Shown here piece by piece: positions 20,747 to 31,742 of a stretch of 43,992 nt of DNA. The stretch comes from Pseudomonadota bacterium. Its GTDB lineage: Bacteria > Pseudomonadota > Alphaproteobacteria > SHVP01. The notes beneath the pieces are model-generated. The model was given only the letters and a program-made list of their open reading frames with translations. It was not told the DNA's origin and did no database searches. The stretch spans positions 1-43,992 of the forward strand of contig JAQBYN010000026.1 in the NCBI GenBank assembly GCA_027622715.1. The letters are read 5' to 3'. Position 1 is the first letter of the stretch; every line of letters starts with the position of its first letter. The position numbers were made by a program, and so were the translations under genes.

Positions 20747-22051
20747 CTATCTCGGATAAATCGGAAAACGGGCACAAAGCGTCAGCACGCGTTCTTTGAC
20801 ATCGGCTTCAACGGCAGCGTCCCCGCCGGGGTTTGCCGCGAGCGCATCAAGTACCTCGACGATCATCGCACCAACTTCGCGAAATTCCGCGACACCAAAT
20901 CCGCGGGTTGATCCGGCCGGCGTGCCGAGGCGCAAGCCGGACGTGACCATCGGTTTCTCCGGATCGAACGGAATGGCGTTCTTGTTACAAGTGATGAAAG
21001 CGCGCTCGAGCGCTTGTTCGGCATCGCGACCCGTTAGCGACTTTGGTCGAAGATCGACCAGCATCAAATGGGTGTCGGTCCCCCCGGTAACGATGTCGAG
21101 CCCGCCCTCGACCAACCGCGCCGCCAGCGCCTGCGCATTGTCGACGATCGACCGCGCATAGATCTTAAAATCAGGTTGCAGCGCTTCTTTGAAGGCGACC
21201 GCCTTGGCTGCAACGACATGCATCAAGGGGCCGCCCTGGATCCCCGGGAATATCGCCGAGTTGACCTTTTTTGCGATGCCATCGTCATTGGTCAGGATCA
21301 TGCCGCCGCGCGGGCCGCGTAGGGTTTTATGAGTCGTCGTGGTCACGACATGGGCATGGGGAAACGGACTGGGATGGACCCCGCCGGCGACCAGCCCGGC
21401 GAAATGCGCCATATCGACCATAAGAAGCGCGCCGACTTCGTCGGCGATGGCGCGGAACCGCGCGAAATCGATGATCCGTGGAACGGCCGACCCACCCGCA
21501 ATAATCAGCTTTGGTCGGTGCTCGGCGGCCAGGGCCGCTACCTCGTCATAGTCGATAAGCGCGTCCTGGCGGCGCACCCCATACTGAATGGCGTTAAACC
21601 ATTTGCCCGATTGGTTGGGTTTGGCGCCATGGGTCAAATGACCGCCGGCCGCCAGCGACATACCAAGAATGGTATCGCCCGGCTTGATTAGTGCTTGAAA
21701 CACGCCTTGATTGGCCTGCGATCCGGAACTCGGCTGCACATTGGCAAAGTCACATCCGAACAAACGCTTAGCCCGGTCGATCGCAAGATTTTCGGCAACG
21801 TCAACAAATTCGCAACCGCCGTAGTACCGATTGCCGGGGTACCCCTCGGCATATTTGTTGGTAAGAACCGAGCCCTGCGCCTCGAGAACAGCGCGACTGA
21901 CGATGTTCTCGGATGCGATCAGCTCGATCTGGTTTTGCTGGCGGCCCAACTCATTTTGGATGGCGTCGTAGAGTTCCTTGTCTTCCTCAGCCAGAGTCGT
22001 GGTGAAAAACCCGTTATCTAGACTGCTTTGCGCCGCACTCGCACTCGTCAT
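20747..22051 (-). CDS. glyA: serine hydroxymethyltransferase
   Basis: PLP enzyme that interconverts serine and glycine and supplies one-carbon units on tetrahydrofolate. It has 434 residues, the usual length. Seen: [21 protein letters not shown] (41-61), [17 protein letters not shown] (65-80), and the PLP lysine Lys242 in [16 protein letters not shown]. It overlaps the rpiB stop in ATGA and is followed by nrdR after 36 bases. Confidence 0.97.
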
Positions 22052-22509
22052 CGAACCGCCTCTTTCGTCCGCACATGATCAATTTTCGCCACCCGGCTTT
22101 CGTGCCGCCCGCCGCCGAACGGTGTCGCCAGAAAGGCGCGCAGGCAATCGCGTGCGACTTCGGTGCCAACAATGCGGGCGCCGAGGGCGAGGATATTTGC
22201 GTCGTTGTGTTCGCGGGCCAACCGCGCCGTCGTCACATCCTGGCAGAGAGCGGCGCGAATCCCGCGATGCTTGTTGGCGGCCATGCTGATCCCGATGCCG
22301 GTGCCGCAGCAGATCACGCCGAGCGCGGCGCGACCCTCGAGCACAGCCACGGCAGCGGCGTGGCCAAAATCCGGATAGTCGACCGAATCGAGGCCGTGCG
22401 TCCCCAAATCCAAAGGCTCGTATCCGAGCGCGCGCAGTTCATCGCCCAAGACCTCCTTCAGGGGAAATCCGGCATGATCGGCGGCCAGCGCGATAACGGT
22501 TTTGGTCAT
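22048..22509 (-). CDS. rpiB: ribose 5-phosphate isomerase B
   Basis: Interconverts ribose 5-phosphate and ribulose 5-phosphate; the latter is the substrate of RibB in the same operon. The 153-residue protein shows [16 protein letters not shown] (active-site Asp11-His12 region) and [24 protein letters not shown] with the catalytic cysteine at 68. It is the first gene of the run rpiB-glyA-nrdR-ribDE-ribB(X)-ribH-nusB-thiL. Confidence 0.95.
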
Positions 22510-22563
22510 AATAATCGGGTTTTGCGGCGCCCGTTTCGGGGCAGCCTACGTACCATATGTGGC

Positions 22564-22590
22564 AGCGCCGTACCAGCGCCGTACCAGCGC
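22564..22590. repeat. short tandem repeat (11-bp unit, about 2.5 copies)
   Basis: AGCGCCGTACC repeats twice exactly and is followed by AGCGC, 55-81 bases upstream of the rpiB start. It lies where the promoter or leader of the rpiB-glyA-rib operon should be. It could be a slippage product or paired protein sites. Confidence 0.6.
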
Positions 22591-22657
22591 TCTACAACCA
22601 CTCGGCGGCAGTTGAGTTCAACCTTAGAATCTGAGGCACATCTAGTAAATGTATTAT

Positions 22658-22673
22658 TTTCAATATCTTGTGG
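22658..22673. promoter_or_regulatory. possible NrdR box
   Basis: TTTCAATATCTTGTGG fits the core of the published NrdR-box consensus (acaCwAtATaTwGtgt) at 11 of its central and right-hand positions; the left outer arm does not match. It lies about 150 bases upstream of rpiB, the first gene of the operon that contains nrdR. I found no good second box at the usual spacing, so this is tentative. Confidence 0.35.
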
Positions 22674-22723
22674 GAAGAGCCCCAGATATTGGGCGGGCCG
22701 TTTGGCCTTTTGGGCGTCGCGCT

Positions 22724-23704
22724 TTAGGTCGCCCGGGCCCGCCGCCGGGCCATTTTTTTGACCAAGGTTTCGGCCACGCCCGGCCGGCTCCAGGGACAGA
22801 CCGCAATACAGATTGCGCATCCTTTGTTCTCATTGAAAAACGGCAAACACTTATCGAAATCGACGTACCATTTCTCTGTGCCGCGCACCCACTGCTTGTG
22901 ATCCGCAATCGCTTGCGGCGGGCAGGCATCCGAGCAAACCCGGCAACTGGTGCAAAAGTCGTCGGCGCCAAAGACATCCGCGCCATCCGCGGCGAGCGGT
23001 AAATCGGTCAGCACCAACGCCAAGCGAAAATTTGCCCCGAACGTGCGATGGATCATCGATCCGTGCCGCCCGAGTTCGCCGAGCCCGGCTTCAATCGCGG
23101 CGGGGATCATCACCATCGACCCGGCCATGGGGCCGCCCTTTAGGTCGGCCGCCCACCCTTGATCGCGAATCCAGCCGGTGAGGTCTTTAACCACCTTGAG
23201 GGCGCGACCGTATTGGTTGACCACTTCGGTTGCCGCGGCATCGCCCGGTGCCGTCTTCAAGGCTTCGTAGTCATGGGCGACGGCGATCACGACCGCCCAT
23301 TTCCATTCTCCCTGGTCGCGACCCTCGAAAATCCAACTCGCGTCCATGCGGGCGATACCAGCATCGTCCGCGCCAAACGTTTTCGCCATGTCCCTGATCA
23401 ACGCGGACCATTGCGCAGGAGATTCAAGCCGCTGAACCGGCGCGATGTCGGGCAACGGGCGATCGATAATCTCTTGGCGGCGCGCCCGCGCAGCGACAAC
23501 GTCCGCTGACTGGGTGTAGCGGCTGTAGAACCAATTCTGGAGCGGGCCGTGCGGAATCGTGTCCGGCTCATGCCAATAGACTGGACTGGGCCGGCGTGGT
23601 GCGGTTTCGCTCAAGCCGTTAATGGCATTGCCCGACACGTCCGGCCACAACGCCATCTGGTCGGGATCGGGCGTATACCGGCCTTGATCTGCTCGCGCGC
23701 TCAT
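22724..23704 (-). CDS. reductive dehalogenase-like corrinoid/Fe-S protein (RdhA family), soluble
   Basis: A 326-residue protein with the RdhA core: GPMAGSMVMIPAAIEAGLGELG (191-212), GSMIHRTFGANFRLALVLTDLPLAAD (215-240) and two iron-sulfur motifs, C-x2-C-x2-C-x3-CP at Cys251/254/257/261 and C-x9-C-x2-C-x3-CP at Cys286/296/299/303. KWYVDFDKCLPFFNENKGC is typical of RdhA-like proteins rather than QueG. It has no twin-arginine signal, no rdhB-type anchor gene nearby and no reductase module, so it should be cytoplasmic and use an outside electron donor. The ATG at 23704 is chosen since upstream sequence is unrelated. It diverges from livH. The substrate is unknown; dehalogenation is not proven by sequence. 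Confidence 0.78.
   Translation of the reverse strand: MSARADQGRYTPDPDQMALWPDVSGNAINGLSETAPRRPSPVYWHEPDTIPHGPLQNWFYSRYTQSADVVAARARRQEIIDRPLPDIAPVQRLESPAQWSALIRDMAKTFGADDAGIARMDASWIFEGRDQGEWKWAVVIAVAHDYEALKTAPGDAAATEVVNQYGRALKVVKDLTGWIRDQGWAADLKGGPMAGSMVMIPAAIEAGLGELGRHGSMIHRTFGANFRLALVLTDLPLAADGADVFGADDFCTSCRVCSDACPPQAIADHKQWVRGTEKWYVDFDKCLPFFNENKGCAICIAVCPWSRPGVAETLVKKMARRRARAT
22736..22759 (+). terminator. terminator-like hairpin on plus strand, antisense to the dehalogenase-like gene's 3' end
   Basis: GGCCCG-CCGC-CGGGCC followed by A and seven T on the plus strand (T-run 22753-22759). It looks like an intrinsic terminator, but no plus-strand gene lies upstream and the minus-strand reading codes for the Arg-rich C-terminus (KKMARRRARAT). 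It may be chance from codon composition or may stop antisense transcription. Confidence 0.35.
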
Positions 23705-23852
23705 CGCGCAATCATAACGCCGAATGCCCGGCGACGCGGCGCCTAACCGCCGCCAGCAGGTGTCGTGCCCACGCGGCATATCCGCTAAACTCCCGGGGCG
23801 CCATGAAAAATCACCCAAAATTGGCTGGAAACTGGCCGTCGCGGGCCGTGCG

Positions 23853-24749
23853 ATGATTGAGTTCATCAACTTTTACCTGATTCCCGGGCTAGTGCTTGGC
23901 TGCATGTATGCGCTCGGCGCGATCGGCATTTCGATGCTGTTCGGCATCCTGCGCTTCGCCCATTTCGCCCATGGCGACGTGATTACACTAGGCGCGTATT
24001 TCGCGTTGCTGTTCGTTACGACGTTGGGCTTTCCGGTTTTGCTCGCACTGCCGGTCGCGATGGTCCTGACGGCAATTGTCTCGATCGGACTCGATCGCGC
24101 CTTTTACAAACCGTTTCGCAATAGTCCAACCATCTACCTGGTCATCGCGTCGTTTGGCGTGGCGCTGATGGTCCGCTCTTTGGTCCAGCTGGCGTGGGGC
24201 GTGAAGGTCGAATCGTACGCGGCTGGTACCTTCAGCAAGCCAATCATCTTTTTTGACACACTGCGCATTGCCGACAAACACATGTGGATCGCTGGCTTGA
24301 CGATCGTTGTTGTCGTAGCGCTGCACTATTTCCTATCGCGCTCGAAACTCGGCAAGGCCATGCGCGCGATGGCGGACGAGCCCGACCTCGCGCAGGTCAG
24401 TGGCATTCCCACCGAAAAAGTTGTGCGGGCAACCTGGATCATCGGCGGCGGACTCGCAGCCACCGCCGGCGTCTTCCTCGGGATGGACAGCCAGCTTCAT
24501 ACGAACATGGGATGGGATCTGCTGCTGCCGATTTTTGCCGCCGCGATTCTCGGCGGCATCGGCAGCCCCTACGGCGCGATCGCCGGCGGACTTGTCATCG
24601 GTATGGCGGAGGAGCTTTCCAGTTACCCCTGGATTGGCGATGCACCACTGCTGTCGCCCGGCTACAAAACGGGGGTTGCCTTTGCCCTGATGGTCGCCCT
24701 GTTGATCTGGCGCCCGAGCGGCCTGTTTCGCGGGCGGACGTTTACATGA
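23853..24749 (+). CDS. livH: branched-chain amino-acid type ABC transporter permease (LivH family)
   Basis: A 298-residue inner-membrane permease. Typical segments: FYLIPGLVLGCMYALGAIGISMLFGILRFAHFAHGDVITLGAY (7-49), RAFYKPFRNSPTIYLVIASFGVAL, a cytoplasmic loop SKLGKAMRAMADEPDLAQVSGIPTEKVV, and GGIGSPYGAIAGGLVIGMAEE near the end. The start at 23853 fits the first helix; upstream in-frame sequence is not homologous. Its stop overlaps the livM start in ATGA. It works with LivM as the channel dimer. Confidence 0.94.
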   Translation: MIEFINFYLIPGLVLGCMYALGAIGISMLFGILRFAHFAHGDVITLGAYFALLFVTTLGFPVLLALPVAMVLTAIVSIGLDRAFYKPFRNSPTIYLVIASFGVALMVRSLVQLAWGVKVESYAAGTFSKPIIFFDTLRIADKHMWIAGLTIVVVVALHYFLSRSKLGKAMRAMADEPDLAQVSGIPTEKVVRATWIIGGGLAATAGVFLGMDSQLHTNMGWDLLLPIFAAAILGGIGSPYGAIAGGLVIGMAEELSSYPWIGDAPLLSPGYKTGVAFALMVALLIWRPSGLFRGRTFT

Positions 24750-25744
24750 GCGATTTGGTATTGGGCCTCATGCTCTACGGGGTGTCGCTCCTAACGATGG
24801 CGGGCATCTACAGCGTACTCGCTATCGGACTGAACATTCAGTGGGGCTATACCGGTCTGTTCAATGCGGGCATCGCTGGCTTTTTTGCCGTCGGCGCCTA
24901 TGTCAGCGCCATTTTGACGTCGAGTCCGTCGACCAGTTTTATCGGCGGACTAGATTGGCCGTTCCCGGCCGGCCTGCTTGCCGCCATGGTCGTGGCTGGC
25001 GCCATCGGCTACCTCGTCGGCCGCTTGTGTATCCGGCTCCGAGCAGACTATTTGGCCATTGCGACGATCGGCGTTGCCGAGATTTTGCGTCTGATCCTCA
25101 AGAACGAAATATGGGCGACGAACGGGCCGCGCGGTATTTCCAACATTCCGCGCCCCTTTGAGGACCTGAGCCAGCCGTGGTCGCAATTGGCGTTTCTTGG
25201 TGTGGTGGCATTTGTCGTTCTTATCGCCTATCTGCTCGCCGAGCGCGCCGGCAAGTCGCCATGGGGCCGCGTGATGCGTTCGATCCGCGACAACGAAGCG
25301 GCGGCGGCGGCAATCGGTAAGGACGTCGTCGGGTTTCGGCTGCAGGGCTTCGTTATTGGCGCCGCTTTGATGGGTTTGGGGGGCGCGCTCACGGCACATT
25401 TCTTCAAGTTCATCGGGCCTGAAGCGACCGAGCCACTGCTGACGACCTTTCTGGTCTGGGTGATGCTGATTATCGGCGGCAGCGGCAATAACCGCGGCGC
25501 GATGTTAGGCGCCCTCGTGGTATGGACCTTGTGGTCCGCAACGGAGCTTCTGACCTCGCAGCTCCCCCCGGATTGGGCCGTGCGGGCGACGTTCCTACGT
25601 ATCTTCCTGATTGGGCTCGGCCTTCAGATCGTGCTTCAACGCTATTCGAAGGGTCTTCTTCCGGAGCGACCACCGAACTCGAGGACCGACGACATGGTCC
25701 CAAGCGTCGACCCCGCGCAAGAAAAAGCCCCGCCCGCGGAATAA
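24746..25744 (+). CDS. livM: branched-chain amino-acid type ABC transporter permease (LivM family)
   Basis: A 332-residue permease partner of LivH. Seen: IYSVLAIGLNIQWGYTGLFNAGIAGFFAVGAY (21-52), IRLRADYLAIATIGVAEILRL, SPWGRVMRSIRDNEAAAAAIGKDVVGFRLQGFVIGAALMGLGGAL. It starts in ATGA overlap with livH. The C-terminus (from about residue 300) is a hydrophilic tail, and its last codons overlap the intrinsic terminator of the opposing binding-protein gene, with the TAA stop in the hairpin loop. Confidence 0.94.
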   Translation: MSDLVLGLMLYGVSLLTMAGIYSVLAIGLNIQWGYTGLFNAGIAGFFAVGAYVSAILTSSPSTSFIGGLDWPFPAGLLAAMVVAGAIGYLVGRLCIRLRADYLAIATIGVAEILRLILKNEIWATNGPRGISNIPRPFEDLSQPWSQLAFLGVVAFVVLIAYLLAERAGKSPWGRVMRSIRDNEAAAAAIGKDVVGFRLQGFVIGAALMGLGGALTAHFFKFIGPEATEPLLTTFLVWVMLIIGGSGNNRGAMLGALVVWTLWSATELLTSQLPPDWAVRATFLRIFLIGLGLQIVLQRYSKGLLPERPPNSRTDDMVPSVDPAQEKAPPAE

Positions 25745-25777: not shown

Positions 25778-27004
25778 CTAGTTGATGCCGATGATGCCGA
25801 TTTCCTTGAAGGTTTCGCCTTCGATCCCGTACTCGCCGATGACACCGGCAACATCGCCTGCGGCATCGAAGTCGAGGGAACCTGCGGCACCGTCGTAATC
25901 GATATCCTGCCCGCTTGCGAGCAAATCAACGGCCTTCTTCCAATCGCCAGGGCCGACCTTGACGCCCGGCGGTCCCGCTACAAAGCGCAGCGCATCCTTG
26001 ATTTTAGTGCGGTCGGTGCTGCCGGCCTTTTGAATCGCCAGCGCGATCAACATGGTCGAGTCATAGCTCTGCTGCACGAAAATCGAATTGGGATCGCCGC
26101 CCGCCGCTTTGAACGCGGCATCAAAAGTGTCTTTGGCGGAATTGGCTTTTGACGTCGGCTGCGTAATGAGCAATTTGCCCTTCAATGCACCGGCGCCCAA
26201 CTGTTGAATAAGGATATCGTCACGCATCCCATCGGCGCCGACGAACATCTTGAAAAAATCGTTTTCAAGACTCTGTCGCAAAATCGTCACGCCAGACGTC
26301 CCGGCATAGGCAAGCACTACGAGCGCGTCGGGTTTGCCCGCAGCGAGTGTCGCCAACTCGGCCCGGTATGAGGTTTTTTTGTCCTCGTGGACTTGATCGC
26401 CGGTGATCTTGCCGCCTTCTTTGACGAAGGCCTCACGGAAGGCCGAGGCCAGACCAACGCCATAGTCGTTGTTGACGAAGGTCAACGCGACACTGTTGAT
26501 CCCCTTGGATTTCACATACTTCGCGAGCACGACACCCTGATAAGCATCAGACGGCGCGGTACGGAACACGAGGTCTTTATCTTCTAGACCGGTGATTTCC
26601 GGCGACGTCGAGGCCGGTGACACCATCACAACGCTGGCTGGGATGGCGACATTGCTGGCGGCGCCGATTGTTGCGCCAGAGCAAAGCGCGCCCACGATGG
26701 CCACTACTTGCTCGACGTTGACCAATTTGCCGGCCGCGTCGACCGACGCCTGGGCGTTGCACTGGGTATCGCCAACAACCAGTTCGAGTTTACGGCCGCC
26801 GAGGATGCCGCCGGCATCGTTGACTTGTTTGATCGCGAGTTGTTCGGCCTCGATGATCGGTGGGACGAGATTCGCGATCGGGCCGGTGACCGCTGAAAGC
26901 GAACCGATTTTGACGTTCTGCGCCATTGACGCCTGGCTCATGCTGGCCGCAAGCGCCGCACCCAGCACAATCGGCAACGAGCGCCGAAGAATAGAAGATT
27001 TCAT
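25778..27004 (-). CDS. branched-chain amino-acid type ABC transporter substrate-binding protein (LivJ-like)
   Basis: A 408-residue periplasmic binding protein of the LivJ/Leu-Ile-Val family. The Sec signal is MKSSILRRSLPIVLGAALAASMSQASMA. The mature part shows VKIGSLSAVTGPIANLVPPIIEAEQLAIKQVNDAGGILGGRKLELVVGDTQC and VAIVGALCSGATIGAASNVAIPASVVMVSPASTSPEITGL. The start at 27004 has GGAGG upstream. It should serve LivHMGF. The true ligand may be an amino acid, urea, amide or aromatic acid; sequence alone does not decide. It reads against livHM and is followed by a strong terminator. Confidence 0.93.
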   Translation of the reverse strand: MKSSILRRSLPIVLGAALAASMSQASMAQNVKIGSLSAVTGPIANLVPPIIEAEQLAIKQVNDAGGILGGRKLELVVGDTQCNAQASVDAAGKLVNVEQVVAIVGALCSGATIGAASNVAIPASVVMVSPASTSPEITGLEDKDLVFRTAPSDAYQGVVLAKYVKSKGINSVALTFVNNDYGVGLASAFREAFVKEGGKITGDQVHEDKKTSYRAELATLAAGKPDALVVLAYAGTSGVTILRQSLENDFFKMFVGADGMRDDILIQQLGAGALKGKLLITQPTSKANSAKDTFDAAFKAAGGDPNSIFVQQSYDSTMLIALAIQKAGSTDRTKIKDALRFVAGPPGVKVGPGDWKKAVDLLASGQDIDYDGAAGSLDFDAAGDVAGVIGEYGIEGETFKEIGIIGIN

Positions 27005-27201
27005 GGGACTAGCCTCCCTGGTTAGGTCTTCGTTTTTTGTCCGTTTCAATTGCATCGTCGGTTTGCCGCAAATGCAAGAGATGATCATTGCATAGGTGCA
27101 AGGGCCGTCCTACGGGAGATCGGTGCCAACCCAGCCATCACAAAGTGTTTCCGCCATTTTTTGACGCGGTGGCCCGGCACCGCCATGACGCAAGGTCAAC
27201 G
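27005..27201. promoter_or_regulatory. intergenic region upstream of the liv binding-protein gene
   Basis: 197 bases between livF (ending 27202, minus) and the binding-protein gene (starting 27004, minus). It probably holds a separate promoter giving extra binding protein; only the GGAGG site near 27013-27017 is clear. I see no convincing -35/-10 pair. Confidence 0.35.
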
Positions 27202-27906
27202 TCAGCCGCCAAGAAACATCTCCGCAACCTCGCGATTCGCGAGCAGATTGGCGCCGGTGTCCTCGTAGCGATTGCGACCCAGCGCCAGAACGTAGCCTCT
27301 ATCCGCCAAAGCGAGCGCGTCCTTGGCATTTTGCTCGACCATGAGGATCGCAACGCCGGTGGCATTGATCTCTTTGACCTTGTCGAAAATCATATCGGTG
27401 AACAGCGGTGACAGACCCGCCGTCGGCTCGTCGAGAAGCAAGAGCTTGGGCTCGAGCATGAGGGCGCGTCCCATCGCAACCATCTGCCGCTGGCCGCCGG
27501 AAAGACTTCCGGCCGCCTGTCGGCGTTTTTCGACCAGCGGTGGAAAGATTTGGTAGACCGCCTCTAGCTGCGCCGAGAAATCGTCGTTGCGCAAGAACGC
27601 ACCCATCTCGAGATTTTCGTGCACCGTCAGCGTCGGAAAAACATTCTTTTCCTGCGGCACATAGCAGACCCGCAGCCGCGCCACCTCGTCAGGACGCTTC
27701 CCCGTGATCTCGTTGCCATCGAACCGGACGCAGCCTCTACGTATTTTGACCAGGCCCACAACAGCCTTCATCGCGGTCGACTTGCCAGCCCCGTTTGGGC
27801 CAACCACGACAACGATTTCGCCGGGCGCAACTTGCAGATCAACGCCGTTCAGGATGTCCGCGCCGCCGTAACCGCCGTACGCGTCCTCGACCTGCAACAA
27901 ACTCAC
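27202..27906 (-). CDS. livF: branched-chain amino-acid type ABC transporter ATPase LivF
   Basis: A 234-residue ATPase subunit. Walker A GPNGAGKST (38-46), Q-loop region VCYVPQEKNVFPTLTVHENLEMG, signature LSGGQRQMVAMGRALM and Walker B LLLLDEPTAGL are all present. It starts with GTG at 27906, in a GTGA overlap with the livG stop. It energises import through LivHM. Confidence 0.95.
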   Translation of the reverse strand: MSLLQVEDAYGGYGGADILNGVDLQVAPGEIVVVVGPNGAGKSTAMKAVVGLVKIRRGCVRFDGNEITGKRPDEVARLRVCYVPQEKNVFPTLTVHENLEMGAFLRNDDFSAQLEAVYQIFPPLVEKRRQAAGSLSGGQRQMVAMGRALMLEPKLLLLDEPTAGLSPLFTDMIFDKVKEINATGVAILMVEQNAKDALALADRGYVLALGRNRYEDTGANLLANREVAEMFLGG

Positions 27907-28730
27907 GTCGCGCTCTCCGCTGGAATTCTGGCACTGCGACCGCCGCCGAGATAGGCGTCAAGAACCTCTTGGTTCTTGCGAATGTCTTCCATTGAACCCT
28001 GGGCGAGAACGGCACCCTCGGCCATCACCACAATTGGATGGCAAAGTTTGGCAACAAGATCCATGTCGTGATCGATGATGCAAAAGGTGTAGCCGCGCTC
28101 TTCGTTCAAACGGCGAATGTCATCCGCCAGCTTCACCATTAGCGTGGGATTGACGCCGGCGCCCGGTTCATCGAGAAGCACGATGTCGGGATCGCTCATC
28201 ATGGTGCGGCCCAGTTCGAGAAGTTTCTTTTGGCCGCCCGACAGGTTCCCCGCGTACTCGCCGGCGACATGCGTGAGGCCGAGGAAGTCAAGAACCTCCT
28301 TCGCCTTTTGCCGTACGTGTACTTCCTCGCTGGTCACCCGACCCCATAAGAACCACGACCGCAAAACGTTCTCGCCCGACTGGCCCGCCGGAACAACCAT
28401 AAGATTGTCGAGCAGCGTCATGCGCTCGAACGCCGCTGGGATTTGGAACGTCCGCATCAAGCCGCGCGCAAAAAGACGATGTGGGGGAAGCCCGGTGACA
28501 TCTTGCCCGTTGAGAATCACTTGCCCCGCGTCGGGTCGGAGGAATCCAGCAACGATGTTGAAGAGAGTCGTTTTTCCCGCGCCGTTAGGGCCGATCAGCG
28601 CCGTGATGGTCCCTTTGTCGATTTCGAACGACGCATTATTGACCGCGCGAATGCCGCCAAAGCTCTTGCTGATGCCCCGAATCGACATCATCGCCACATT
28701 GTCGACTTGCGCGACGCCACCCGCAGTCAT
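27903..28730 (-). CDS. livG: branched-chain amino-acid type ABC transporter ATPase LivG
   Basis: A 275-residue ATPase. ISKSFGGIRAVNNASFEIDKGTITALIGPNGAGKTTLFNIVAGF (Walker A near 47), the LivG-type FQIPAAFERMTLLDNLMV, signature NLSGGQKKLLELGRTMM and Walker B IVLLDEPGAGVNPTL are visible. The ATG at 28730 adds about 13 residues before the usual start; an internal ATG near 28691 is also possible. First gene of the livGF unit. Confidence 0.94.
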   Translation of the reverse strand: MTAGGVAQVDNVAMMSIRGISKSFGGIRAVNNASFEIDKGTITALIGPNGAGKTTLFNIVAGFLRPDAGQVILNGQDVTGLPPHRLFARGLMRTFQIPAAFERMTLLDNLMVVPAGQSGENVLRSWFLWGRVTSEEVHVRQKAKEVLDFLGLTHVAGEYAGNLSGGQKKLLELGRTMMSDPDIVLLDEPGAGVNPTLMVKLADDIRRLNEERGYTFCIIDHDMDLVAKLCHPIVVMAEGAVLAQGSMEDIRKNQEVLDAYLGGGRSARIPAESAT

Positions 28731-29100: not shown

Positions 29101-30351
29101 TTGACCGACGAACCAACGCTCGACGCGGCTCCCGCGCCGCAAGACACATTCGGCCAGCGCTTCGCCCTGATCCGCGAGCCGAACTTCCGGCGGATGTGGA
29201 TGGTTGGCGGCGCCAGCATGGCGCTGCAATGGCTTGAGATGCTGGCCGGGAGCATCTTTGTTTTGAACGTTACCCAATCCGGGTTTGCCGTCGCGTTGGT
29301 GACACTGGCACGGGCCTCGCCGATGGTCCTGTTCGGGTTGATCGCCGGCGCCCTGGCGGAGCGGGTCAGCCGGCGTAACCTGCTGATCGCCGGCTACAGC
29401 ATGCTGATCGTGACGTCCTTCGTGCTTGGCACGTTGGGGATCACCGACACGCTGACGCCTTGGCATGTCGGCATCGGCATGTTCATGACCGGCACGGTGT
29501 TTTCGATGGAGTTCCCGATCCGCCGCAACATGCTGGGCGAGTTCGCCGGCATGGACCGGATCGCCACCGCCATGGGCCTGGATTCGGTAGTCCGCAACGG
29601 CATGAGAATCGTGGGCCCGCTGGCGGGTGGCGCGCTCATGCAGTTCGTCGGGATCGAGGGCGCCTATTACCTCGCGACGCTGACCTACATCTATATTGTT
29701 TACCTGTTGCTCCGGGTCGACAACCCGCGCACGCCATCTGAAACGCTGCGCCCGTCACTTGTGACGACAATTGTCGAAGGGGTGCGTTTCGCGCGCAGCG
29801 ACAAAGCTGTCCTCGGGCTTTTGGCCGTCACGATCGTTATGAACATCTGGGCATTTCCTTACATGGCGATGGTGCCCGTGATCGGCCAACAGCAGCTCGG
29901 CCTGTCGGAATTGCCGATTGGCATTCTGGTGGCGACCGAGGGTTTTGGTGGATTGCTCGGCGCCATGCTGATCGCCAACGGGGGCGGCGCTTGGTCGGGC
30001 GCCTACCGGAAAATGTACTTCTTTGGGTCGTGCATCTTTATGGCGGCGATCGTGGGGTTTTCCCTGTCGCTGTGGTTCGAACTGTCGCTCGCCATCGTTC
30101 TGCTAGGGGGATTGGGCGTTGCCGGGTTCTCGACCATGCAAGGCACCCTGCCCTTCGTCGTCGCCCCGCCGGAAATGCGTGCCCGCGTACTCGGATTGCT
30201 GTCGGTCTGTATTGGGACGGGACCGCTGGGCATTCTCCATCTTGGTCTGATGGTCACCCTGCTCGGAGCGCCGTTGGCGACCACCGTCATCGGGCTCGAA
30301 GGCCTACTCGCGATGGGCGCGCTCTACTATTGGATCAAAGAGGTCCGTTAG
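29101..30351 (+). CDS. major facilitator superfamily transporter (EntS/MFS_3-like)
   Basis: A 416-residue 12-helix permease. It opens with a cytoplasmic [27 protein letters not shown], typical of MFS_3/EntS-like exporters, followed by [28 protein letters not shown] (loop 2-3 motif) and [21 protein letters not shown]. The TTG at 29101 is chosen because AGAGAGG lies upstream and an ATG at 28990 would overlap the divergent small gene and add a Pro/Gly-rich stretch unlike the family. Exporter role inferred; substrate unknown. Its stop overlaps that of hemA by bases, tail to tail (30348-30351). Confidence 0.87.
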
Positions 30352-31565
30352 GCGGCGAGGTAGCGCTGGATATCGTGCGCCGACCAAACGTGTTTCAACG
30401 CCGCCACCAAATCGTCCATCATCGCATCGGTATGGAGCGGCGACGGCGTGAAGCGCAGCCGCTCGGTGCCGCGGGGGACGGTGGGATAGTTGATCGGCTG
30501 AACGTAAACCCCGAAGTCATTCAGCAACATGTCTGATGCCCGCTTGCAACAGGGCGCATTGCCGACCATCAGGGGCACGATATGCGTCGCCGATTCCAGA
30601 AGTGGCAAGCCGGCGTTGCGGAACCGGTTCTTGAGCGATGCCGCACGCTCTTGATGCCGGACGCGAAGCGCATTGTGAACCTTCAGATGTTGCACGCTGG
30701 CCAAGGCGCCTGCCGCGATCGCGGGCGAAAGAGACGTGGTAAAAATGAAGGAGGCTGCGTAGCTCCGTACCACATCGACGATCGTCGATGACGCCGCGAT
30801 ATAGCCGCCCATCACACCGACCGCTTTGCCCAATGTGCCTTCAATTACGGTGACGCGGTGCGCCAGACCTTCGCGGTCCGCGATGCCACCGCCGCGGGGC
30901 CCATAGAGGCCAACCGCATGCACCTCGTCGAGATAGGTCATCGCACCGTATTTGTCGGCCAAATCGCATATTTCCGCGATCGGGGCGATGTCGCCGTCCA
31001 TCGAGTAAACCGATTCGAAGGCGATGAGTTTTGACACCGCCGGATCGCACTCTTTGAGCAATTGCTCAAGATGGTCGACGTCGTTGTGCCGGAAGATCCT
31101 CTTTTCGGCGCGGCTCGCGCGAATCCCCGCGATCATCGACGCATGGTTCATGGAATCTGAAAAGATCACACAGTCTGGCAGAAGGCCCGCCAAGGTACCG
31201 ATCGTCGCCTCGTTCGAGATGTAGCCCGAGGTGAACAGCAGGGCGGCCTCTTTGCCGTGCCAATCGGCGAGTTCTCGCTCTAACAGCACGTGATAGTGGT
31301 TAGTGCCGGAAATGTTGCGGGTGCCGCCGGCGCCCGCGCCAACGGTATGCAGCGCTTCCTCCATCGCCTTAATGACGACCGGATTTTGGCCCATCCCGAG
31401 GTAATCGTTCGAGCACCAAACAACCACCTCATCTTGCTGGTTGCCATGGTGATAGGTCGCGCGCGGAAAATCGCCAGCGCGGCGCGCCAAATCGGCGAAG
31501 ACGCGATAGCGGCCTTCCTCTTTCAGGGCCCCGATCTTGCGGGCAAAGAATGCTTCATAATCCAT
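30348..31565 (-). CDS. hemA: 5-aminolevulinate synthase
   Basis: The first committed haem-pathway step in alphaproteobacteria (Shemin pathway): glycine plus succinyl-CoA to 5-aminolevulinate, PLP-dependent. The 405-residue protein shows [54 protein letters not shown] (213-222), the PLP lysine Lys247 in [10 protein letters not shown] and [13 protein letters not shown]. The ATG at 31565 is preceded by AAAGG; a TTG two codons up is less likely. hemB lies 3.6 kb away on the other strand. GlyA at 20.7 kb can supply the glycine. Confidence 0.96.
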
Positions 31566-31742
31566 GGGCAACCGACCTTTGCGGCGACTTTACGGTCACT
31601 TGAGCCGCCGGGCAAACATACAAGATGTCGCACCACACGCTTTGCGGCATCTCAAATACCTGGGTATAAGGGGCAAATTCAGCCCGCCTGGTAGGTTAAC
31701 CCCGATTGGGCGCGGTCTATTCCGGGACTTCGGAGGATTTTC
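31566..31742. promoter_or_regulatory. divergent promoter region hemA / gcdH
   Basis: 177 bases between divergent genes. GGAGG at 31732-31736 is the gcdH ribosome site. A weak hairpin GATGTCGC...GCGGCATC lies at about 31624-31651. No firm -35/-10 pair or Fnr-type site was recognised. Confidence 0.35.

Follow-up and report, generated by a model that had tools for sequence, protein, structure and literature searches.

A compact RdhA-like protein, probably a small cytosolic B12 enzyme, encoded beside a split liv transporter

The window, by which we mean the whole stretch of 43,992 nucleotides that was analyzed, carries on its minus strand an RdhA-like gene (22724-23704) that begins with an ATG at 23704, has its stop codon ending at 22724 and encodes a soluble, compact corrinoid/2x[4Fe-4S] protein of 326 amino acids. 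Downstream on the same strand, after a gap of 214 bp, lies rpiB (22048-22509), which forms a housekeeping block with glyA (20747-22051, minus strand). On the other side a livH-type permease gene (23853-24749, plus strand) diverges from the RdhA-like gene. With the livH start at ATG 23853 the divergent gap is 148 bp, in agreement with the distance of about 150 bases given in the earlier note, which was also right in calling the liv transporter split: livH and the livM-type permease gene (24746-25744) are on the plus strand and the genes for the liv-type periplasmic binding protein (livK, 25778-27088) and the LivF and LivG ATPases (27202-28730) on the minus strand.

Orthologues of the window protein in three related genomes are 82, 80 and 72% identical to it, and comparison of the gene with the orthologue of G001 gave a pN of 0.103 against a pS of 0.701, with synonymous sites near saturation. 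We conclude from this that the open reading frame is a real gene, and it is under strong purifying selection. The eight cysteines of the protein all fall within two Fe-S motifs, C251-C254-C257-C261 (22922-22954, minus strand) and C286...C296-C299-C303 (22796-22849, minus strand). No Tat motif was found in the protein, where RR occurs at 37, 75 and 320 only, and the N terminus contains no hydrophobic stretch (best 19-residue Kyte-Doolittle mean of 0.21 in the first 50 residues). A scan of positions 21500-24300 for ATG-started open reading frames of 50-140 amino acids with two hydrophobic segments (mean >1.6) returned no membrane-anchor candidate. In the protein Pfam detected domains of the ferredoxin type and, weakly, an LdpA Fe-S match, and no reductase domain; the adjacent genes are rpiB, glyA and the liv genes, no redox partner was recognised near the gene and no catabolic neighbour at the locus. 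The picture drawn beforehand, of a protein with two Fe-S motifs and with neither a twin-arginine signal, a membrane-anchor gene nor a fused reductase, therefore stands, and the product is probably an unusually small vitamin-B12 enzyme of the cytosol, resembling in its build the reductive dehalogenases, which remove halogens from organic compounds.

The host genome encodes COX1, contains three B12-binding-domain matches and gave no match to cobS or cobN, from which we infer an apparently aerobic organism that probably imports B12. The earlier description of the host as apparently aerobic, and of the protein as soluble, RdhA-like and without a Tat signal, is thus supported. Several corrinoid enzymes are predicted in this genome despite the lack of a cobS or cobN match, and the window itself contains a tetrapyrrole gene, encoding 5-aminolevulinate synthase (TIGR01821, above cut-off), at 30351-31571.

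When the protein was compared with the PDB by phmmer, it matched 8q4h (5.8e-31), NpRdhA (4ras, 2.9e-26) and PceA (4uqu, 4.1e-25), and QueG (5d6s) far more weakly (1.8e-7). Among the curated models, PF13486 gave no match (Pfam, E up to 1), TIGR02486 scored 120.4 bits, under its cut-off of 160.35, and the QueG model TIGR00276 scored 50.2 bits (1.8e-13) against a cut-off of 200. None of the 19 family members scanned matched PF13486 at E 0.01 and all 19 matched TIGR02486; as the best E-value (2.4e-35) is only a few bits above the score of the window protein, probably none of them reaches the TIGR02486 cut-off. A structure model, as suggested in the earlier note, was built from a 19-row alignment (A1) and had a mean pLDDT of 91.8 and a pTM of 0.90. 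VIA-align compared this model with RdhA chains at Z 26.5-29.0, over a model range starting at residue 31-35 and ending at 307-326, versus Z 14.9-15.4 over 94-311 for QueG and 7.4 at best for MMACHC. With NpRdhA the Z was about 28, and only residues 277-594 of NpRdhA were covered. Foldseek TMq values were up to 0.75 with NpRdhA and, among the matches listed, at most 0.48 with QueG. The different starting points of the RdhA and QueG ranges indicate that residues 31 to about 93 align with RdhA and not with QueG. The model thus shows the fold of the solved corrinoid-binding RdhAs. The RdhA core ascribed to it earlier is backed by homology, catalytic residues and fold but not by the curated models, and we are highly confident that the protein belongs to the class of compact RdhA-like corrinoid enzymes.

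Residue equivalences were counted along the aligned PceA and NpRdhA chains, and conservation was counted in 103 family sequences, made up of 97 anchors drawn from 93 loci, five further sequences and the window protein itself. These sequences were picked by similarity to the window protein and repeated species were kept; locus L022 was dropped, its contig being identical with that of L036, and further repeats between loci were retained. Four rows (L135 and L138, first labelled 'short', and L147 and L150, first labelled 'ros') were relabelled 'other' between the tree described below and the residue counts, and set aside. Tyr165 (codon 23210-23212, minus strand), which aligns with the catalytic Tyr of NpRdhA (Y426) and PceA (Y246), and Arg227 (23024-23026, minus strand), which aligns with PceA R305 and NpRdhA K488, are present in all 103 sequences, as are the first seven cysteines, C303 being present in 102. 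Position 227 is Lys in nine NpRdhA/BhbA-type rows, Arg in the Ros-like (four) and Tat (one) rows and Phe or Leu in eight QueG rows, although the catalytic Tyr is common to the QueG rows. The NpRdhA/BhbA-type rows, labelled 'fused', are proteins of 463-1098 amino acids, some of which lack a reductase. For the roles of the catalytic Tyr and Arg/Lys we follow the available parts of PMC10463259 and PMC4646009, and our counts agree with the latter, as far as its available text goes, on a QueG Tyr without an RdhA-type Arg/Lys. The comparison of these positions that had been proposed in the earlier note thus came out on the RdhA side, and judged by alignment the predicted proton-donating pair of the family is that of RdhA.

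The substrate side of the pocket, also judged from these counts, seems to be the family's own. Gly191 (23132-23134, minus strand) takes the place of PceA N272 in 101 of the 103 sequences, a position occupied by Asn in the Ros-like and Tat rows and in five of nine NpRdhA/BhbA-type rows. Position 290 is Phe in 97 of the 103, Arg in the NpRdhA/BhbA-type rows (the place of NpRdhA R552) and Trp in the Ros-like rows. Arg274 (22883-22885, minus strand), the invariant Arg of a VRGxxKWYVDFDKC segment, Trp279 and Asp284 are each found in all 103.

The window genome (G000) holds four relatives in all: the window gene, a paralogue of 51% identity (C6:18434-19375), a second RdhA on C1 and a QueG-type gene at C86. 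The RdhA on C1 (L001 988-2214) is a 408-amino-acid open reading frame, 37% identical to the window protein. It scores above the cut-offs of PF13486 and TIGR02486 (184.5 bits), and its cluster motifs resemble those given for Ros_A3X954 in the available text of PMC13101508. The C6 paralogue (L026) has near it a gene weakly like AurF (under the Pfam cut-off) and one for an FAD_binding_4 protein, and clustering places ABC exporter-like genes close by. Screening of 41 near and same-class genomes, own genome included, gave some match at E <= 0.001 in 25 and a match below 1e-90 in eight (G000-G003, G010, G016, G031 and G034). At E <= 1e-40, and with the own genome counted, 3 of 398 genomes of the phylum and 21 of 385 of the class matched. 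In GTDB contigs at least 588 stretches matched the patterns used and at least 519 encode a relative at E <= 1e-3, other RdhAs possibly being among them. The best 80 of these at least 519 all have E <= 1e-100 and come, by record title, mainly from Alpha- and Gammaproteobacteria; some are from Betaproteobacteria, two from Gemmatimonadaceae, and Chloroflexi and Saprospiraceae contribute one bin each, although bins may be wrong; many record titles of relatives are marine and some are from soil. Family proteins are mostly about 315-360 amino acids long. By these matches the window protein belongs to a widespread compact RdhA-like subfamily below the standard family models. We recognised no published account of it in the open-licence literature, although the screen of 36 RDases by Ng and Silver, cited in the available part of PMC13101508, might include a member.

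No operon partner kept across the family was found in the 93 loci: neighbour clusters 1-4 (16-62 of the 93 loci) overlap the anchor and are therefore read as shadow open reading frames, and the largest other cluster comprises 12 of the 93. Close neighbours numbered 120; they are same-strand genes within 150 bp, followed for at most three steps, and divergent genes no more than 300 bp away, all called by an in-house codon score, so that individual calls may err. Among them we found seven UbiE-type and seven ABC1 domains. The window and 12 family loci contained no cobalamin riboswitch that reached the gathering score. In all six of the scanned loci L028, L046, L060, L063, L069 and L104 the compact gene directly follows an ABC1 (UbiB-type) gene; five of the six are labelled Rhodobacteraceae or relatives, and in both of the two checked further a UbiE gene precedes the ABC1 gene. 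At L042 2281-3240, on a contig labelled Gemmatimonadaceae, the compact RdhA-like gene has a QueG gene about 1.1 kb upstream of it.

The phylogeny of the family was reconstructed with IQ-TREE from 64 core sequences and 247 columns. The QueG rows form one separate clade (100/100), which holds the window genome's own QueG and from which the window protein is absent. A second group (96/98) of 18 rows unites the NpRdhA/BhbA-type, Ros-like and Tat rows with L135, L138, L147 and L150, which grouped together beside the RdhAs. The window protein and its three close orthologues (100/99) are placed in the remainder of the tree, outside both groups. In AU tests, a branch with both QueG and the window protein on one side was not rejected (p-AU 0.546), and neither was a single clade of the 38 core family rows (p 0.607), which the free tree had not resolved. 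Since we read the p of 0.546 as showing that the attachment point of QueG is not fixed, we claim no branching order among QueG, the compact family and RdhA. A place of the window protein inside QueG is disfavoured by the tree, although the tree does not fix the point at which QueG attaches.

The best functional clue comes from a gene cluster away from the window locus, in another alphaproteobacterial genome, G430 (G430:C11:32000-51500; L032, 2-19161). Five compact RdhA-like genes stand there in tandem on one strand, and their products are 36.6-40.3% identical to the window protein; a sixth copy, on C1 of the same genome, is 40.9% identical and has different neighbours. On the strand of the tandem genes are also encoded a TonB receptor, a catechol 2,3-dioxygenase (378 bits, NCBIfam cut-off 320) and a stand-alone reductase of 320 amino acids, which matches residues 757-1071 of the RdhA of Comamonas 7D-2 plasmid pBHB at 36% over its length. 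We take this plasmid-encoded RdhA to be BhbA. No homologue of the reductase was found at 1e-15 in the other family loci searched. Past a gap of about 1.8 kb follow an intradiol dioxygenase, whose best NCBIfam match is chlorocatechol 1,2-dioxygenase (under cut-off), a 3-oxoadipyl-CoA thiolase (666 bits, cut-off 597) and, on the same strand, an Fe-ADH and two CoA-transferase-domain genes. The Fe-ADH is named by no model and we would guess it to be a maleylacetate reductase. Tail to tail with the dioxygenase gene stands the gene of a sigma-54 regulator whose nearest match is MobR, known from phenol degradation, at 466 of the 999 bits of the cut-off. This layout is the one expected if the compact proteins dehalogenate phenolics and a separate reductase replaces the fused domain of BhbA. 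The halogenated substrate put forward in the earlier note is accordingly plausible, with support coming from the G430 genome and none from the window locus.

The function that we consider most likely for the window protein, with somewhat better than even confidence, is that of a cytosolic corrinoid-dependent reductive dehalogenase. It would represent the RdhA type reduced to its catalytic unit and would depend on a corrinoid and two [4Fe-4S] clusters. The enzyme may bind base-off cob(II)alamin; as neither cobS nor cobN turned up in the genome, the corrinoid is probably imported. Electrons from a soluble ferredoxin, a flavodoxin or a PDR-type reductase would pass through the two clusters to form Co(I), and the enzyme would then dehalogenate a small organohalide, the proton coming from Tyr165 under the tuning influence of Arg227. 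Its likely role would be to detoxify a halogenated compound or to open it for aerobic catabolism, a compound that is probably aromatic, although this is unproven for the window protein. The dehalogenase reading is supported by PDB matches of 1e-25 to 1e-31 against 1.8e-7 for QueG, by the invariant Y165/R227 pair and the RdhA fold, by the aromatic cluster of G430 with its BhbA-type reductase, by the debromination of 2,6-dibromophenol by another Tat-less RDase, Ros_A3X954, and by three B12-binding-domain matches in a genome without cobS or cobN matches. Against it count that the catabolic cluster occurs in one genome only, with copies 36.6-40.9% identical to the window protein, that the pocket differs at G191 and F290, that TIGR02486 stays below cut-off, that no partner gene is conserved, that no catabolic or redox-partner neighbour and no cobalamin riboswitch was found (window and 12 loci), and that the attachment of QueG is not fixed (p-AU 0.546). 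We know of no activity for any compact-family member found here.

Several other explanations have to be weighed against this. One, from the earlier note, is that the enzyme acts on a substrate taken up by the adjacent liv system. The order glyA-rpiB-gene-livHM-livK is indeed kept in four of four close-clade genomes (the window genome, G001, G002, whose contig ends before livFG, and G003), so that the pairing with livHM is conserved at this range; across the family a liv-type permease domain is present in only 3 of the 120 close neighbours, where the livH genes are those of the same close clade. Moreover, in G004, a 90% complete genome of the same GTDB family with only a QueG-strength match to the window protein, ribD-nrdR-glyA-rpiB is followed directly by livK, livM, livH, livF, livG and a homologue of window 28990, with identities of 42-86% across these genes, and no RdhA-like gene lies between rpiB and liv, which indicates that the liv cluster can adjoin the housekeeping block without it. 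The nearest solved structures to the liv binding protein are branched-chain amino acid binding proteins (3td9, 4.1e-27; 1z15, 1.8e-25). From these three lines we conclude that the liv neighbourhood is positional and the place of livH incidental by all appearances; the transporter is probably not a partner, we set that partnership aside, and an enzyme coupled to it is improbable. A QueG paralogue whose substrate would be tRNA or a queuosine-like base is a very unlikely reading indeed. The weak TIGR00276 match (1.8e-13) and the joint placement that was not rejected (p 0.546) would fit such a paralogue, but all eight genomes with a strong family match also show a separate, weaker QueG-type match (four of these, from G000, G001, G003 and G031, were placed in the QueG clade), and membership of QueG itself, for which the earlier note had named phylogeny as the test, is rejected on the separate 100/100 clade, on R227 in place of Phe or Leu and on a Z of 15 against 26.5-29 for RdhA.

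What a corrinoid reductase of this fold removes might instead be a leaving group other than halogen, such as an epoxide oxygen, an ether or sulfur, and the enzyme might then belong to central or secondary metabolism. At the places of the RdhA Asn and of R552 the pocket differs from that of RdhA; for most members no catabolic neighbours are recognisable; UbiE-type and ABC1 domains are each found in 7 of the 120 close neighbours, and an ABC1 gene stands directly upstream in six of six scanned loci; and QueG shows that other reductions are within reach of the superfamily (PMC4646009, available part). Given the invariant RdhA Tyr-Arg pair and the aromatic catabolism of the one richly informative cluster, in G430, we regard this as unlikely, if still to be taken seriously. 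A degenerate RdhA that performs no substrate chemistry, and instead carries electrons on its Fe-S clusters or acts as a corrinoid chaperone, would suit the small size of the protein and a fold that weakly matches MMACHC (Z at most 7.4); such a role is hardly probable for a family with both active-site residues in 103 of 103 sequences and a gene under strong purifying selection. Respiratory-type PceA enzymes are among the closest PDB matches, yet with no Tat motif, no membrane-anchor open reading frame found and COX1 in the host, an exported, energy-conserving respiratory dehalogenase is extremely improbable.

Returning to the dehalogenase reading, we think it possible, at slightly less than even chances, that the family represents a fifth, minimal RdhA architecture, single-domain and cytosolic, with a Tyr-Arg pair and Gly for Asn, and missed by PF13486/TIGR02486. 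Hidden reductive dehalogenation in the cytosol would then occur in many aerobic members of the Proteobacteria and perhaps in some of the Gemmatimonadota and Chloroflexota, and the G430 lineage would have expanded the enzyme fivefold beside a split-off BhbA-type reductase in a haloaromatic pathway. Because both models miss it, the compact family is probably absent from dehalogenase surveys built on them, and if its members dehalogenate, such surveys would overlook a broad set of aerobes with B12-dependent halogen removal. Being small and built of a single domain, such a protein would also make a convenient RdhA for studies of mechanism, and through Gly191, which is nearly invariant, and Arg274, which is invariant, one can test directly what determines substrate choice across the superfamily.

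The window protein shares with the RdhA superfamily a Tyr and an Arg at the places of PceA Y246 and R305, two [4Fe-4S] motifs and the RdhA fold, and differs in having no PF13486 or TIGR02486 match above cut-off. Like QueG epoxyqueuosine reductase it belongs to the corrinoid/2x[4Fe-4S] superfamily with a common Tyr (PMC4646009, available part), but it lies outside the QueG clade and below the TIGR00276 cut-off (50.2 of 200 bits), and QueG lacks an Arg at 227 and reaches about half the Z. With respiratory RdhA (PceA) it has in common the fold and the Tyr246/Arg305 pair, whereas PceA has a Tat signal, a membrane partner and a role in respiration and no Tat motif or anchor open reading frame was found for the window protein. 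In its available part, PMC10463259 distinguishes four RdhA subfamilies by domain organisation (catabolic with reductase, catabolic without, respiratory and transmembrane), describes a vestigial duplicated domain in catabolic RdhAs and gives ortho-halogenated phenols as the substrates of those characterised so far. The catabolic enzymes (NpRdhA, BhbA, JtRdhA) resemble the window protein in having no Tat signal, an RdhA core and the catalytic Tyr and Lys/Arg, but they carry the duplicated vestigial cobalamin domain and mostly a fused reductase; the window protein has neither, being 326 amino acids long and aligned with NpRdhA 277-594 only, and a fused or adjacent reductase is likewise missing from it, in G430 being a separate gene. 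It therefore fits none of these four subfamilies as the available text defines them. Also close are two proteins in the available part of PMC13101508, A0A2T7UTL8 of Pararhodobacter aggregans, a Tat-less RDase, and the Tat-less Ros_A3X954 of Roseobacter sp. MED193, which was chosen through PF13486, a domain that the window protein lacks, and debrominates 2,6-dibromophenol. The Ros-like rows have Asn and Trp in all four cases where the window protein has Gly191 and Phe290, and what the window protein shares with Ros_A3X954 and A0A2T7UTL8 is the absence of a Tat signal, the two [4Fe-4S] motifs and the RdhA relationship.
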